A stretch of DNA of 64,000 nt, taken from the NCBI RefSeq assembly GCF_000014145.1, contig NC_008255.1:1055501-1119500 (forward strand). Direction: 5' to 3'. Of this stretch, positions 1-6,207 are shown in pieces. The first letter of the stretch is position 1. Every line of letters begins with the position of its first letter. Both the position numbers and the translations under genes were made by a program. The notes beneath the pieces were generated by a model. The model was not told the DNA's origin and searched no databases. It saw nothing but the letters and a program-made list of their open reading frames with translations. Source of the stretch: Cytophaga hutchinsonii ATCC 33406 (GTDB lineage: Bacteria > Bacteroidota > Bacteroidia > Cytophagales > Cytophagaceae).

Positions 1-1320
1 CATTTTTAGAGGATCTAATACCGGAGAAGGGAAAGACCATCTTGATATAACACCCGTAGTTATATCAGCATGATTATCATTCGAAATAGTATTGCCTAAA
101 TTATCCCGGACAAGAAGATTGTTTTTAGAAGATAGGGCAGGGCCGCCAAATCTTAAATCTCTTAATGTGAAAAAAAGATCCTGATTGATGAGATCTGCTT
201 GATCAGATGAGGACAATGAAATGAAATGTTTATAAGGTATAGATGTGTACTCCGTAAGAATACTTCTGCTTGTATTTACAATACACAGATCTCCTGTTTG
301 AGCTGCATTTACCGTGCGTTTTGAATTGATATAAATGTAATCGATGTTCCACACATTAAACCGTCCGCTTAACAAACCATAATTTCTGAACCGGTATTGA
401 AACCCTTTGTGCCGGTAAAGAGTGTCTTTTAAAGGTATATTAACAACACGGAAGGTATCAATTGTTTGTGTCGGGTCGCCATATTTACGCCATACTTCCT
501 GCCATACGTTATTGCGGTTTTTAAATTCCAGAATTAAATAGGCAGAACTTTCCGGTGTATCTCCGAAGCTTTTTGATTGCCAGTAAAAGCTGAAATAAAC
601 AGAGTCTTTTGCTTTATAGGAAGATAAATTAAAGGGCAATGAGGTTAATTTATCAGCATACCCGTTAACATTAGCATTTGAATACGGAAATCCCGTATAC
701 TTTATCGCATCAAAAGAGGCAACCCCGATGCTTACAGGATTTAAAGACATGTTGTCATTAATATACACACCACCGCTATCGTCAAGAAAACCTAACACAT
801 CGGGTTTTGTACTGTAGCCATTAATACCCAGTTTATACCAGTTGCAATATTGCATCTGAGCTAACGGGTCAGCATTAACAGTGGTTGGAACCGTTAAAAG
901 CCTGTCATTAAATAGCTGAAAGGTATATTTATCAAGAACTTTTACAAATCGTTTACCTAAAATATTATAAGCTGTAGTATCAAATTTTTCCCCGCTTCCG
1001 AATGCATTTAAAATACGGATACTATCTCCGCTAAGCAGCGGATGAAGCTTTAATTGTTTGATCTCGTATATATTTTCTGTTGAAGTAAAGGCAACTATTT
1101 TAATGGTATCAATAGGTAATTGTGGCCCTGAAAAATCTTCAATATAGGGAAGTTTTAACGTATCTGTTTGAGTGAGTGCTGCAGTACGTGCATCGGAGGC
1201 TGAATATTCAGCTGTTTCACCAACATTATATTGGGTCAATGGTACAATGGATACCTGTGCCAATACAGGCATAGAACCAATCAACACAAAAAGCAGACAC
1301 GGAAAAAAAAGTTTTTTCAT
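1..1320 (-). CDS. Secreted protein, C-terminus beyond window edge
   Basis: The reading frame is open from an ATG at 1320 to base 1, so about 440 residues of the N-terminal part are visible and the rest lies outside the window. The first 22 residues form a Sec signal peptide (Lys-Lys, a hydrophobic stretch, cleavage near ALAQ-like VLAQ). The mature part is rich in Ser, Thr, Asn and aromatic residues, with many short beta-type segments, as in surface proteins of Bacteroidota. I do not recognise a catalytic motif. It lies 16 nt downstream of the PASTA gene and is probably the last visible gene of the mrp-nfu-ddl-PASTA run. A T9SS C-terminal domain would be expected but cannot be seen. Confidence 0.8.
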   Translation of the reverse strand, partial: MKKLFFPCLLFVLIGSMPVLAQVSIVPLTQYNVGETAEYSASDARTAALTQTDTLKLPYIEDFSGPQLPIDTIKIVAFTSTENIYEIKQLKLHPLLSGDSIRILNAFGSGEKFDTTAYNILGKRFVKVLDKYTFQLFNDRLLTVPTTVNADPLAQMQYCNWYKLGINGYSTKPDVLGFLDDSGGVYINDNMSLNPVSIGVASFDAIKYTGFPYSNANVNGYADKLTSLPFNLSSYKAKDSVYFSFYWQSKSFGDTPESSAYLILEFKNRNNVWQEVWRKYGDPTQTIDTFRVVNIPLKDTLYRHKGFQYRFRNYGLLSGRFNVWNIDYIYINSKRTVNAAQTGDLCIVNTSRSILTEYTSIPYKHFISLSSSDQADLINQDLFFTLRDLRFGGPALSSKNNLLVRDNLGNTISNDNHADITTGVISRWSFPSPVLDPLKM

Positions 1321-1336
1321 ACGCTGGATAAATGAA

Positions 1337-2113
1337 TTATTGAGGAATTACCGGATCGCTTCCCGCTACAACAAGATCGATTATATCTCCAGAACGAAGT
1401 TTTTGCCCCGATTGGTATGCAGGTTTTTGATTGCATACTGTTCCTTCTGCTAATTTTGAATTTGTATCATAATTAACAAGCCCAACCACCAGGCCCATAC
1501 TGCTGATGGTGGATTTCGCCTCATCTAAAGACATATTTACCAAATTGGGAATTTCAACATCCGTTTCACCTCTGCCGGTACCTACCAACAGGTCAATTTT
1601 AGAGCCTTTGGGAATAGAAGTACCTTCTTTTACGGGAGCACCATTTATAAACTGCCCTAAAACAGTAGGGTATGGATGTGGAGCTGTTTTAATTTCGCCC
1701 ATCTGTAAACCTAGGCTTTTAAGAATCATTTCAGCTCCTCTGGGAGATTCATCAATCAGTTTAGGCATTTTAATATTGGGCGGGTGCTGAGCTGCAATAC
1801 TCAAATAGATCCTTCTGTTTTCTTTTACTTCATTGCCCGGCAGCGGATGTTGTGTTAAAACAGTTAATGGTGTAATACCCGGCTTAAATGTTGAATCACT
1901 GATTTCATAACGCAAACCCAGGTCATTTAATTTCTGTTCAACCTGGCTGATCGACAGGCCTTCTAATTTAGGTACACTGATGTATTCTCCGTGCTTGGTT
2001 ACAGACGGTAAATACCAGTAAAAGAAGATGAGTATTAAACCTACAAAAATACTTACTATAATTCCTGCATGAATGAATACACTTTTTAATGAATCTGCTT
2101 TAAATAATTTCAT
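1337..2113 (-). CDS. PASTA domain membrane protein (no kinase domain)
   Basis: This 258-residue protein has a short cytoplasmic N-terminus, one membrane helix at about residues 13-34, and three PASTA repeats outside the membrane (about 43-108, 112-180 and 184-254). Each repeat shows the family pattern of V/IP-L-hhG followed by A/E-hhhLGL. PASTA domains bind uncrosslinked peptidoglycan or muropeptides, and here they would face the periplasm. Unlike the Ser/Thr kinases and PBPs of Gram-positives, there is no kinase or transpeptidase part. The start lies 1 nt after the stop of the D-Ala-D-Ala ligase gene, so the two are almost certainly co-translated, which fits a role in cell-wall sensing or synthesis. 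The exact role is unknown. Confidence 0.9.
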   Translation of the reverse strand: MKLFKADSLKSVFIHAGIIVSIFVGLILIFFYWYLPSVTKHGEYISVPKLEGLSISQVEQKLNDLGLRYEISDSTFKPGITPLTVLTQHPLPGNEVKENRRIYLSIAAQHPPNIKMPKLIDESPRGAEMILKSLGLQMGEIKTAPHPYPTVLGQFINGAPVKEGTSIPKGSKIDLLVGTGRGETDVEIPNLVNMSLDEAKSTISSMGLVVGLVNYDTNSKLAEGTVCNQKPAYQSGQKLRSGDIIDLVVAGSDPVIPQ

Positions 2114-2114
2114 A

Positions 2115-4808
2115 TTATATTTTAGCTAATTTTTTCTTTTCTCTTTCTATGCCAAATGTTAAAATGTTATCAATGAAGTCGTATGGCTTATATCCATTAA
2201 TAGCCGTCTGGTGAAATATACAGGTTGCAGGCGTCATGCCCGGCAGCGAGTTTACTTCAATGATAATGGTTTCAGATCTATTGTTTTCAAAGACACGTAC
2301 AAACGCATCGATCCGTGCATACCCCTGAATATTCAATACTTCAGCTACGCGTTTTAATGTTGCACGTACTTCTGAAGCCACTTGCTCATAATCTGCTTTG
2401 TTGGTTGTATAACGCGCCGGGGTTATGTTCTGTCCTTCACCGGCAAGGAATTTTTCTTCCAGGGATAAAACATCACCGGTAGCCAACGATTCAGAAGGTT
2501 CAAATATTTCATATTCAACGTTGCCTTTATCGTTGAAACGGGTCATTAATCCGCCCGTAACTTCCAGGAAATGTTTTGCATTGCCTTTAGAAACCAGATC
2601 TTCAATTAAGAAATAATCTTTCTGCGGAAATTCTTCGTTATATTTCAATCCCAATACGGAAGAACTGACAGATCCCTGAATGGCTTCTTCACCAAACATT
2701 AATCGGGTATAGGCACGAAGCTCGTCTCTGTTTTTTATCTTTTTAACCGCAGAGCTGCATCCATCGTCAGATGGTTTAGCAATGATGGGATATATAAAAC
2801 CGGATTCAATTTCGGATAACAATTTTTCGCCTGCGTCTAACCATTCCTGCTTGTAAACCATTCTGTGGTTTGCAACAGAAATACCATGCTCCCGAAGAAT
2901 GCGGTTTGTCTCAAATTTATTGATCGTGATCTGAGAACTTTGTATACCTGAACCGTTATACGGCAACTGATATTTCTCAAGCTCTTTCTGCATGCTGCCA
3001 TCTTCTCCCGGCCGGCCGTGCAGGGCAATGAAGACGCCATCTACCAGCTCAGAAAGTTCTTTGTAGGAAATCTCTTTCGGATCTTTAATTGCATTGCTCA
3101 CATACCGGCTGCTGATCGATTCCGTTTCTTTTGCAATATGTTCAATGATCGGGTGGTGCCCTTTAAAGTTGATTACTTTTTCACGTATATCATCTGCATT
3201 GTCTTTCAATAAAATATTGATCGGTAAGATGAATAAACGGTGCTGCTCGTCACTGCCTGTTAAGAACACAGGAAGCGGCTGGTATTTTGTACTGGAGGAA
3301 AGTTTTTCAAAGATATTTCTTCCGCTTTCAACGGAGATGTGGCGTTCAGAAGAATAGCCACCCATTACCACAGCAATTTTAATTTTTTCTTTGGAAGAAT
3401 TCTTTTCAGATGAAATTGCCTGATCCAGTGTTGCCAGCAATTGTTTGTAGCGCAAACTTCTTTTGCCGTCTTTAATACGCTCCTGAATAGACGTACGGAT
3501 AATGTAGGTAAGGAATTGAGACGGATTTAAGCCGATCTCTGCTGCCTGATGAAAAAAGAAGGACGATGGCATCATACCAGAAGTCGTATTCGGGTCGTTT
3601 AAGAAGACCTCTCCTTCAGGAGAAATAAAACCATCAATACGTGCATATACATTGAACTGTAAGGTTGAATATAAGCGGCAGCATTCGCTGCGGATCAATT
3701 CAACTTGTTCGCCAGGAATATCAATAGGTGTGATCTTTCTTGACATGCCCGGCAGATATTTTGAACGGTAATCAAAGAAATCATTTCCTTTAACAATACC
3801 CGTAGGAGGCAGCGCTATTGGATTACCATCTTCATCCTGTATAACAATGCAGGAGAATTCCTGGCCTTTAATAAAGGATTCAATGATGATTTCTTCCTCA
3901 TTATCTAAACTTTCCAATAAAACACGTTCTTTAGAAGAAAGCGATTGATTTAAATGTGCTAATAATTCTTCCGGATGATAAATGGTTTTGCCTTGTAATA
4001 CATCATTTACGGGCATGCCAATACCATCGCGGATATCGGTAAGGGTTGCCACCCATTTTATTTTCGCATGTTCTGTTTTTGTGTTCCAGTCTGCAGCTGT
4101 AATTTCCTGAAGAAAAAAGCTACGGTTTAGCGCTTGCTTTAATTTTTCTTCATTTCGCTCACTGATAACCGTAATACCAATGGAAGAGCCTTGTGACGGT
4201 GCTTTTACAACAAAAGGAAAACCTACGCTTGATTCAAAATGTGCAAGCAGTGCTTTTGTATCAGCACCTTTTAGCCAGGTAGATTTTTTGTAGGTAACAT
4301 AGTTAGGTCCGTTGAAACTGGCTTGTGCTACTAATTTCTTCTGAATGTATTTATTGATACCAATAGCTGAAGGCAGAATGCCTGAACCTGAATAGGGAAT
4401 ATTATTCCAGTCCAGCATACCTTGTATGGCACCATCTTCTCCATAAGGACCATGTAAAGCAAGGAAGGCAAAGTCAATTAATTCTTTCAGGTCAGAAGGC
4501 TCAATTTTTCTGCCTACTTTTTGAATCATGGCATCCCGTTCTTCTTTTGGAAGGTCACCAAGTGATTCAACATAGACCTGAAAGCCATGAATGCTTTTAG
4601 GAAGAAATTCAAAAGGAGGGTAGAAATCACGAATGGTTCCCTTGTAGATATATTGCCAGTCTAATAAAATGAACTGGCCAAGGCTATCAACAAAGATGGG
4701 AACGGTAGTGAAAATATCTTTATTTAAATTATCGTAAACAGTTCTTCCTCCAGCAAATGAAATTTCTCGTTCTCTAGACTGTCCACCAAAGATGATTCCT
4801 ATTCTCAT
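2115..4808 (-). CDS. ddl: Tandem double-domain D-alanine--D-alanine ligase
   Basis: D-Ala-D-Ala ligase makes the dipeptide for peptidoglycan precursors in the cytoplasm, using ATP. The usual enzyme is 300-370 residues; this one is 897 and holds two complete Ddl/ATP-grasp copies, at about 1-450 and 475-897. Both have the N-terminal GG-S-ER segment (E15; E488), the LHGxxGEDG segment (118-126; 596-604) and an RID segment (390-392; 832-834). The N copy keeps the YDYxxKY-type loop (345-351) but has NDPNTTSGM where ENxxPGM is expected (404-412). The C copy has the canonical EVNSLPGM (851-858) but Lys-Phe (786-787) instead of Lys-Tyr. The gene follows nfu by 31 nt and precedes the PASTA gene by 1 nt. 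The family is certain; whether both copies are active is open. Confidence 0.93.
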   Translation of the reverse strand: MRIGIIFGGQSREREISFAGGRTVYDNLNKDIFTTVPIFVDSLGQFILLDWQYIYKGTIRDFYPPFEFLPKSIHGFQVYVESLGDLPKEERDAMIQKVGRKIEPSDLKELIDFAFLALHGPYGEDGAIQGMLDWNNIPYSGSGILPSAIGINKYIQKKLVAQASFNGPNYVTYKKSTWLKGADTKALLAHFESSVGFPFVVKAPSQGSSIGITVISERNEEKLKQALNRSFFLQEITAADWNTKTEHAKIKWVATLTDIRDGIGMPVNDVLQGKTIYHPEELLAHLNQSLSSKERVLLESLDNEEEIIIESFIKGQEFSCIVIQDEDGNPIALPPTGIVKGNDFFDYRSKYLPGMSRKITPIDIPGEQVELIRSECCRLYSTLQFNVYARIDGFISPEGEVFLNDPNTTSGMMPSSFFFHQAAEIGLNPSQFLTYIIRTSIQERIKDGKRSLRYKQLLATLDQAISSEKNSSKEKIKIAVVMGGYSSERHISVESGRNIFEKLSSSTKYQPLPVFLTGSDEQHRLFILPINILLKDNADDIREKVINFKGHHPIIEHIAKETESISSRYVSNAIKDPKEISYKELSELVDGVFIALHGRPGEDGSMQKELEKYQLPYNGSGIQSSQITINKFETNRILREHGISVANHRMVYKQEWLDAGEKLLSEIESGFIYPIIAKPSDDGCSSAVKKIKNRDELRAYTRLMFGEEAIQGSVSSSVLGLKYNEEFPQKDYFLIEDLVSKGNAKHFLEVTGGLMTRFNDKGNVEYEIFEPSESLATGDVLSLEEKFLAGEGQNITPARYTTNKADYEQVASEVRATLKRVAEVLNIQGYARIDAFVRVFENNRSETIIIEVNSLPGMTPATCIFHQTAINGYKPYDFIDNILTFGIEREKKKLAKI

Positions 4809-4839
4809 GGAAATATGTACTTCTGTGAATTAAAAATTA

Positions 4840-5100
4840 TTATTGTTCAGCATTGATTGCAAAGACACCTTTTATCTCAGGGACAGCCTTGCGGATGGAT
4901 TCTTCAACACCTGCTTTTAATGTCATAGCAGACATCGGGCAAGTACCGCATGCACCAAGCAATTCCAGCTTTACAATCATATCTTCGGTAATTTCTACCA
5001 AACGTACATTGCCACCATCTGTAATCAAATACGGGCGGATACTTTCAAGAGCTTGTTCTACTCTGTCCAGCAGTTCTGTGTTTTCAGTTGTTGTACTCAC
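4840..5100 (-). CDS. NifU C-terminal (Nfu) Fe-S cluster carrier
   Basis: This 86-residue protein is a stand-alone Nfu domain. Its CGTC motif (C51, C54) in the context LGACGTCPMS binds and delivers Fe-S clusters to client proteins, usually as a homodimer bridging a [4Fe-4S] cluster. The length is normal for the single-domain form. It starts 3 nt after the stop of the Mrp-type ATPase gene, so both Fe-S carriers are probably made from one mRNA. The family is clear; the client proteins cannot be told from sequence. Confidence 0.93.
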   Translation of the reverse strand: MSTTTENTELLDRVEQALESIRPYLITDGGNVRLVEITEDMIVKLELLGACGTCPMSAMTLKAGVEESIRKAVPEIKGVFAINAEQ

Positions 5101-5103
5101 GGT

Positions 5104-6207
5104 TTATACTTTAATTTCTACTTTTCTTGTTTCTGCCAGGGATGCATTACGGATGGCCACCTGCTGGGCTACTGTTTCGGCTAACTCTTTAAATGCCTGC
5201 GCTGTTATTTTATCCAGATTGATTACGGCCGGTTTTCCCATATCACCGCTTTCACGGATACCCTGCACCAACGGAATCTGCCCAAGCAACGGCACATCAA
5301 ATTTTTCTGCCAGTTCTTTTCCGCCGTCTTTCCCGAAAATATAATATTTATTTTCAGGAAGTTCAGCAGGTGTGAACCACGCCATATTTTCAATTACTCC
5401 TAAGACCGGTACATTCACCTGTGGCTGACGGAACATCTGTAGGCCACGCTGCGCATCGGCAATAGCAACTTTCTGAGGTGTCGTTACTACGATTGCGCCT
5501 GTTACCGGTACTGTCTGCACGAGTGTAAGATGTATGTCACTCGTGCCCGGTGGCATATCAAATAATAAGTAATCCAGTTCTCCCCAGTCACAATCGCTGA
5601 TGAATTGACGCAGAGCCGAACTGGCCATTGGTCCTCTCCATACAACCGCACTTTCCGCCGGTGAAAGAAAACCAATGGATATAAGTTTAACACCATACTG
5701 CTCAATCGGAATGATCGTTGGCTTGCCGTTTTCATTTTCAATTACATTCGGACGTACATCTTCCACATCAAACATGGTTGGTATGGATGGACCCGAAATA
5801 TCGGCATCAATGATACCAACTTTGGCACCTGACTTAGAAAGTGCAACCGCTAAGTTTGCGGTGATCGTTGATTTACCAACACCACCTTTACCGGACGAAA
5901 CAGCAATGATATTTTTAACATGCGGAAGTACAGGTCCGCTATTGAAACGACCCGTTGTAACATCTGCTGTCATATTAATCACCACAACAGCTGTACCGGA
6001 AACAAGTTTATGAATCGCTTCTGTACAGGAGTTGCGAATAAGTTCTTTAAGCGGGCATGCAGGTGTTGTCAAAACTACTGTGAAAGAAATGTTTTGACCA
6101 TCAATTGCGATGTCACGAATCATATTCAACGTAACCAAATCTTTTTTCAGATCAGGTTCAGGTACAGTTTTCAGGGCTTCTAAAACTTGTTCTTGGGTTA
6201 TAGACAT
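5104..6207 (-). CDS. apbC: Mrp/ApbC family Fe-S cluster carrier ATPase
   Basis: This 367-residue cytoplasmic P-loop ATPase is of the Mrp/NBP35 family, which carries Fe-S clusters to target enzymes. Residues about 3-85 form a DUF59 (MIP18-like) domain. The deviant Walker A SSGKGGVGKST is at 104-114, followed by DADISGPSIP and LDYLLFDMPPGTSD switch regions. The CxxC of many Mrp proteins, expected after the GVIENM segment, is absent (the text there is AWFTPAELPENK), which I recall as common in Bacteroidota homologues. It is the first gene of the minus-strand run with nfu and ddl. The symbol is a family name and could equally be mrp. Confidence 0.93.
   Translation of the reverse strand: MSITQEQVLEALKTVPEPDLKKDLVTLNMIRDIAIDGQNISFTVVLTTPACPLKELIRNSCTEAIHKLVSGTAVVVINMTADVTTGRFNSGPVLPHVKNIIAVSSGKGGVGKSTITANLAVALSKSGAKVGIIDADISGPSIPTMFDVEDVRPNVIENENGKPTIIPIEQYGVKLISIGFLSPAESAVVWRGPMASSALRQFISDCDWGELDYLLFDMPPGTSDIHLTLVQTVPVTGAIVVTTPQKVAIADAQRGLQMFRQPQVNVPVLGVIENMAWFTPAELPENKYYIFGKDGGKELAEKFDVPLLGQIPLVQGIRESGDMGKPAVINLDKITAQAFKELAETVAQQVAIRNASLAETRKVEIKV

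Follow-up and report, generated by a model that had tools for sequence, protein, structure and literature searches.

D-Alanine–D-alanine ligase (Ddl) is known from textbooks as a single-domain enzyme and is targeted by drugs such as D-cycloserine. Escherichia coli has a pair of Ddl isozymes, DdlA and DdlB, and, to our knowledge, the active sites of Ddl enzymes lie within one subunit. In D-Ala-D-Lac and D-Ala-D-Ser (Van-type) ligases, the position of DdlB Tyr216 can be occupied by His as an alternative to Phe. Here, we describe a different arrangement in Cytophaga hutchinsonii ATCC 33406. In a stretch of 64,000 nucleotides (NC_008255.1, positions 1,055,501 to 1,119,500; here called the window), one gene encodes two complete Ddl copies in a single chain, and each copy has its own, nearly fixed active-site signature. 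By its domains and fold, this protein belongs to the Ddl family; as a two-headed Ddl with two fixed, different signatures, it is a new form of that family. No description of a tandem Ddl was recognized in searches of open-licence papers, as judged from titles and the openings of abstracts.

Studies of described ligases offer a point of comparison for second-substrate choice. The residue at the Tyr216 position of the Leuconostoc D-Ala-D-Lac ligase is given as Phe261 (PMC4895993), and DdlB with Tyr216 and Ser150 changed to Phe and Ala is reported to have weak D-Ala-D-Lac activity (PMC7691350). Because the C-terminal half (C half) of the tandem protein has Phe at position 216, as in the Leuconostoc enzyme, and because of the DdlB substitution results, an altered acceptor for this half is plausible.

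The likeness to the Ddl family as a whole (PF01820 plus PF07478, with E. coli DdlB as the reference) is extensive, as both halves have both domains, the fold, and nearly all of the ATP-binding, Mg-binding, and catalytic residues. The tandem protein differs in having two copies per chain, two divergent and near-invariant signatures, and Asp in place of Glu270 in its N-terminal half (N half). LmDdl2 from Leuconostoc (PDB 1ehi) shares Phe at position 216 with the C half and is its top structural match, in a tie. However, the C half has Thr and Cys at positions 281 and 282, and the whole chain scores far under the NCBIfam cut-off for D-lactate ligases (NF000206, 188.6 versus 550), as well as under that for D-serine ligases (NF000207, 204.1 versus 520). 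In MurC-Ddl fusions (NF011171), a Ddl is likewise joined in one chain to another cell wall ligase unit, but the partner here is a second Ddl rather than MurC: the chain reaches 196.7 bits where the cut-off is 1015, and the five Pfam families that it matches include no Mur ligase domain. DdlA/DdlB pairs also provide two Ddl sites per cell, whereas the two sites described here are fused and differ in their acceptor-pocket residues.

Two complete Ddl copies in one chain

The original prediction, made from the DNA letters, placed an 897-residue chain with two full Ddl copies at 2115 to 4808 of the window without naming a strand. The open reading frame, which lies on the minus strand, and Pfam bear this out, with Dala_Dala_lig_N matched in two stretches of the chain and Dala_Dala_lig_C in four. 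Moreover, D-Ala-D-Ala ligases are the top matches of the 897-aa protein in a sequence search of the PDB. The parts of the gene are as follows, with counterpart positions such as Tyr216 numbered by E. coli DdlB, as throughout our residue alignment.

2115..4808, minus strand: tandem D-alanine–D-alanine ligase, 897 aa, the only Ddl found in the genome
3459..4808, minus strand: N half, residues 1-450, a Ddl copy with the canonical Glu/Ser/Tyr triad
3399..3458, minus strand: linker, residues 451-470, a predicted helix in the secondary structure of the AlphaFold2 model
2118..3398, minus strand: C half, residues 471-897, a Ddl copy with a Cys/Phe/Thr acceptor-pocket signature
3756..3776, minus strand: N-half omega loop FDYRSKY, residues 345-351, in which Tyr351 corresponds to DdlB Tyr216
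3558..3599, minus strand: N-half metal/acceptor loop NDPNTTSGMMPSSF, residues 404-417, with Asp405 for Glu270, Ser410 for Pro275, and Phe417 for Leu282
2748..2768, minus strand: C-half serine loop DDGCSSA, residues 681-687, with Cys684 for Ser150 and Ala687 for Gly153
2412..2468, minus strand: C-half omega loop LSLEEKFLAGEGQNITPAR, residues 781-799, with Lys786 kept and Phe787 for Tyr216; a low-confidence region of the model
2220..2258, minus strand: C-half metal/acceptor loop EVNSLPGMTPATC, residues 851-863, with Glu851 and Asn853 kept, Thr862 for Ser281, and Cys863 for Leu282
3090..3227, minus strand: part of the first domain of the C half, residues about 528-573, the counterpart of a C-terminal remnant in a truncated clade, from an alignment read by eye

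Within the one-contig genome of 4,433,218 bases, PF01820 matches only the two halves of the tandem gene. No second ordinary ddl was found in this genome, where the further PF07478 matches have no PF01820 partner.

An AlphaFold2 model built from the window protein and 22 relatives has a mean predicted local distance difference test score (pLDDT) of 86.6 and a predicted template modeling score (pTM) of 0.85; this pTM, which spans all 897 residues, suggests that the mutual placement of the halves is confidently predicted. Most of residues 783-792 in the C-half omega loop fall below 50 pLDDT, and the N-half loop is in the 60s. The best 50 rows from Foldseek and the best 50 from VIA-align are all Ddl-type ligases, with Van-type enzymes included. 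By VIA-align, the first rank of the C half goes to the Leuconostoc D-Ala-D-Lac ligase (1ehi_A; Z 38.9, root mean square deviation 2.7, 344 aligned), which is tied with D-Ala-D-Ala ligases from Thermus and Staphylococcus. The N half is the best-aligned part in 6 of the best 50 rows, all of one Ddl and the first of them at rank 35. As modeled, the fold of the C half is that of a full Ddl.

Active-site signatures of the two halves

The residue alignment comprised 81 tandem proteins, namely, the window protein, 78 loci from a homologue search, and loci L034 and L136; L001 and L009, which are copies of the window, were left out, and partial tandem loci were unused too. In the N half, Glu15, His63, Lys97, Ser150, Glu187, Lys215, Tyr216, Arg255, Asp257, Asn272, Gly276, and Ser281 are present in 81/81 proteins, and so the Glu15-Ser150-Tyr216 triad is kept throughout. 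The departures from DdlB are Asp for Glu270 and Ser for Pro275 (81/81 each), Phe for Leu282 (80/81), and Arg for Lys144 in 23 of the 81. Asp at the Glu270 position also occurs in all 28 members of a set of truncated N-type proteins described below. In one study, the counterparts of Glu270, Asn272, Arg255, Gly276, Ser281, and Leu282 are described as ATP- or substrate-binding, and the counterpart of Glu270 (Glu275 in that paper) as 98 to 100% conserved in Ddl sequences; the paper uses another numbering, which we mapped by offset (PMC6899670).

The C half has a different signature. Glu15, His63, Lys97, Lys144, Glu187, Lys215, Arg255, and Asp257 are kept in 81/81 proteins, Glu270 in 80/81 (the remaining row has Pro and may be a misaligned fragment), and Asn272 in all 79 rows that have a letter there, two C rows being without letters at 272-282. 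The departures are Cys for Ser150, Phe for Tyr216, and Leu for Tyr212 (81/81 each), together with Thr for Ser281 (79/79) and either Cys (74) or Ala (5) for Leu282. Adding 18 further C-type sequences brings Phe216 to 99/99 and Cys150 to 97/99, such that the Phe of Van- and LmDdl2-type ligases is found in every C-type sequence. The C-half omega loop, LSLEEKFLAGEGQNITPAR, is strongly conserved among the tandem proteins.

Most of what the original prediction read from the letters is present, including NDPNTTSGM at 404-412, EVNSLPGM at 851-858, and a C copy without the loop Tyr, which has Phe787 instead. Its YDYxxKY motif at 345-351 begins with Phe, although the key Tyr is where it was placed. What finds no support is the description of the sites as imperfect, since each half has a nearly complete set of ATP-grasp residues. 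Judged by its residues, the N half has an altered metal/acceptor loop and an intact triad; its NDPNTTSGM loop is altered, not broken, with Asn272 and Gly276 kept and Asp for Glu270. The C half, by the same reading, has intact chemistry residues and an altered acceptor pocket. The suggestion that the halves are not two equal enzymes has held up, as evidenced by their different near-invariant signatures across the 81 proteins: the catalytic residues are not all intact in both halves, and no single-domain ddl that could make the tandem gene a spare was found elsewhere in the genome.

Both halves are under constraint. Mean pairwise identity across the tandem proteins is 57.3% for the N half and 59.7% for the C half, and the C half is the more alike in 2648/3240 species pairs, whereas columns that are 98% fixed number 112 in the N half versus 89 in the C half; overall, we regard the two halves as conserved to a similar degree. 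Within one protein, the N and C halves share about 25% identity. Relative to the close relatives L040 and L071, nonsynonymous differences per site (pN) are 0.079 to 0.128 over both halves versus synonymous differences per site (pS) of 0.665 to 0.807, with synonymous sites near saturation. With conservation on a par with that of the N half, the C half is not decaying; indeed, neither half is, and strong purifying selection acts on both. The idea of a dead second copy was rejected on the basis of residue conservation and codon data.

Distribution of tandem, split, and truncated forms

A homologue search of public genome records identified 80 loci that align from residue 1 to at least residue 852 of the query, a few of which run off their contig. 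The closest named locus is from Cytophaga (L071, 85%), and others come from Pontibacter, Hymenobacter, Marivirga, Sporocytophaga, and genome bins labelled Saprospiraceae and Chitinophagales. A profile made from 22 C halves and run over 395 genomes of the phylum matched 5 genomes at 597 to 728 bits, while the best other match reached 109.7 bits, and because of this gap, we treat the C type as a discrete family. Within the order, a C-type match occurs in 132/241 genomes and 15 family groups (hand count, best E below 1e-80); it was not seen in seven family groups (f2, f3, f4, f8, f11, f12, and f19). The tandem protein is old and widespread. In a tree of 78 rows, the C type (24), the N type including split and truncated forms (31), and single Ddls (23) are each split off at a bootstrap of 100, although this tree is unrooted and cannot say whether the N and C types are nearest kin.

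A mobile origin was considered and rejected: of the 499 records from a plasmid search, none reached 60% identity, and among the 10 matches listed, which are distant Ddl relatives, the best had 27%. The examined genomes of f3, f8, f12, and f19 and two f15 genomes have one classical Ddl each. Those two (L160 in G496 and L161 in G449) are large f15 genomes with a 400-aa single Ddl, which might be a replacement, most examined f15 genomes being tandem.

Family f21 consists of small genomes (0.7 to 2.7 Mb) in which the two types are often separate genes. We chose 18 f21 genomes for having the C type, and a count over 21 was run later for a fair denominator, giving the C type in 19/21. The tandem gene is present in 6 of the 18, separate N-type and C-type genes in 11, and the C type alone in 1 (G488), where no N-type gene was found; the N type is thus present in 17/18. 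The two genes of the 11 split genomes lie on different contigs or far apart. For 3/4 genomes with context (G039, G054, and G566, not G488), the separate C-type gene keeps a neighbor encoding PASTA repeats, and the N-type gene lies elsewhere, which is the pattern expected of gene fission. The f21 C types have Phe216 in 17/17 sequences and Ala for Gly276 in 16/17, and His63 is altered in two split N types. The murF model matches in all 18 genomes, 17 of them over the cut-off, and alr is over the cut-off in 17. Cardinium and Amoebophilus are reported to be capable of peptidoglycan synthesis (PMC3486910).

Another 28 proteins, from f2, f4, and f11, consist of an N-type half followed by a tail of 93 to 173 residues, with the C catalytic domain lost. 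A BLAST comparison in a small database links 24/28 tails to the first domain of the C half (E of at most 0.01), and the other 4 have no such match. Read by eye, the tails have lost Glu15 as well as HGxxGED, except for a partial copy in L170, and most keep a helical segment equivalent to residues 528-573. With a support of 100/100, the truncated proteins are a single clade. PF01820 is matched once in each of their 28 genomes, where the N type is the only Ddl found. A tree of the N type with more truncated proteins gave long-branch warnings and unsettled bootstrap values; L163 and L183, cut at contig ends, were left out of it. Elsewhere in these lineages, the C-half profile revealed no C-type gene at E of at most 1e-20 beyond matches of N-type strength. 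murF was found in 30/30 genomes tried, including 6 of the 28. At position 275, all 28 truncated proteins have Pro, while 97/97 N types with a C partner have Ser, Ala, or Val; this pattern is suggestive of an adjustment between the heads, though it amounts to one event on the tree.

What the second head may do

We regard the following model as about an even call: the N head would be the housekeeping D-Ala-D-Ala ligase, and the C head would be a second ligase that differs in acceptor or mode and also provides a scaffold through its first domain. In this model, the N half would make the D-Ala-D-Ala used by MurF. The C half would be catalytically competent, with a different acceptor (second substrate) or reaction mode, and its first domain might also dock onto the N half or act as its dimer partner, stabilizing or tuning it. 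Such docking would explain why a remnant survives where the catalytic part is gone. A more specific version is no better than tentative: across much of the order, D-Ala-D-Ala would be the product of the N head, and the C head would join D-Ala to an acceptor (X) new for any Ddl, yielding a second dipeptide or depsipeptide, D-Ala-X.

Several findings weigh against a second ligase of this kind. The whole truncated clade (28 proteins, one ancestral event) lives without the C catalytic domain, and so the C-half reaction is not universally needed. Also, the C-half profile finds no match in two f21 genomes, G572 (0.7 Mb, 90% complete) and G605 (66% complete), and in G586, which is outside the 18, the C-type gene is in several pieces (G586:C4:16854-18045). 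The f21 C types of G488 and G551 (2/17) have Ser instead of Cys150. The C-half omega loop is unlike that of single Ddls in the comparison set, so that specificity is not readable from it. Finally, PF02826, the 2-hydroxyacid dehydrogenase family, has no match over its cut-off in 17 of 18 f21 genomes, the eighteenth having only a partial match of 29.9 bits; all 12 other genomes in this search have a match of at least 153.9 bits, with 189.4 bits in the C. hutchinsonii genome. The search covered NAD-type 2-hydroxyacid dehydrogenases; D-lactate might still come from FAD-type enzymes, racemases, or a host. D-Lactate had been suggested as the obvious acceptor by Phe216, and this candidate is weakened by the lack of NAD-type enzymes in most of the small genomes.

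The C half could instead be a regulatory or structural pseudo-subunit, a built-in dimer partner docked on the N half, able to bind ATP or D-Ala but without a product of its own. This is unlikely in our view but deserves real weight, as a first-domain remnant without Glu15 survives in the truncated proteins (24/28 tails match), the pTM spans both halves, and the C half lacks Tyr216 and Ser150, which weakens the classical mechanism. Nevertheless, invariant Lys215, Arg255, and Asp257 and near-invariant Glu270 and Asn272 are unexpected for a dead partner, and the C-type gene of 11 genomes stands apart from the N-type gene, either on a different contig or at a distance. We consider it improbable that the two heads resemble fused isozymes, both producing D-Ala-D-Ala and distinguished only by affinity, pH range, or feedback. 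The title of PDB entry 1iow describes Y216F DdlB crystallized with ADP and phosphoryl phosphinate, and so Phe216 need not abolish the chemistry; moreover, every acceptor other than D-Ala is unproven. However, simple isozymes would be expected to keep Ser150, Tyr216, Tyr212, Ser281, and Leu282, all of which are replaced near-invariantly in the C half.

The original prediction also offered a heterodimer-like active site made in one chain. The halves do depart from DdlB at different positions, and the residue at 275 follows the presence of a C partner without exception. Even so, the ATP-grasp set is close to full in each half taken by itself, the Pro275 pattern is one event in one clade, the halves are separate genes in 11/18 f21 genomes, and the truncated clade lives on its N-type site, all of which makes a composite site shared by two imperfect halves very improbable. 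For a chance fusion, an assembly error, or a decaying duplicate, we found no point in favor, and the likelihood is negligible given 80 tandem loci, the C type in 132/241 genomes, and purifying selection on both halves; with so many loci in public records and the window gene in a one-contig genome, the gene is not an assembly slip.

A Ddl with two fixed sites, one of them with a Phe/Cys/Thr pocket, that is the only Ddl found in the cell constitutes a natural experiment on second-substrate choice. Its split and truncated relatives reveal which half can exist on its own and which part may serve as a scaffold. If the C head does have another product, peptidoglycan precursors in this group would be more varied than assumed. 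With a two-product ligase, these bacteria would have either a second stem-peptide end, formed constitutively, or an additional D-Ala product.

Gene neighborhood and further observations

The genes next to the tandem ligase in the window are as follows.

1337..2113, minus strand: downstream neighbor, beginning 1 bp past the ddl stop; its product has three PASTA stretches
4840..5100, minus strand: upstream neighbor, a NifU-domain protein (Pfam, synteny)
5104..6207, minus strand: upstream neighbor, an ApbC/NUBPL-type P-loop ATPase (Pfam, synteny)

A PASTA gene directly follows the tandem ddl in 37/76 tandem loci, a count that is a lower bound under the BLAST criterion. The gene order ApbC-NifU-Ddl-PASTA is common to lineages with tandem and with single Ddls; for instance, both f8 loci have a single classical Ddl in this order. 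Iron-sulfur assembly genes adjoin ddl in this order.

The C. hutchinsonii genome has two murF-like genes, a stand-alone one (G000:C1:797634-798857) and an 874-aa frame (G000:C1:4298798-4301152) in which MurF is followed by an alanine racemase domain (a MurF-Alr fusion); several relatives have similar second copies. A second MurF, in a frame of 821 to 892 aa, also occurs in the single-Ddl genomes G036, G051, and G020, and because of this, the idea that the C type is linked to the racemase-fused MurF was dropped.

The two C-type genes with Ser150, L159 in G488 (752-2032) and L184 in G551 (241-1461), both come from 0.7 Mb genomes. Finally, whereas the PASTA protein is usually the next gene, L156 (G232, 1242-4841) has the tandem Ddl and PASTA repeats in one frame of 1200 aa.

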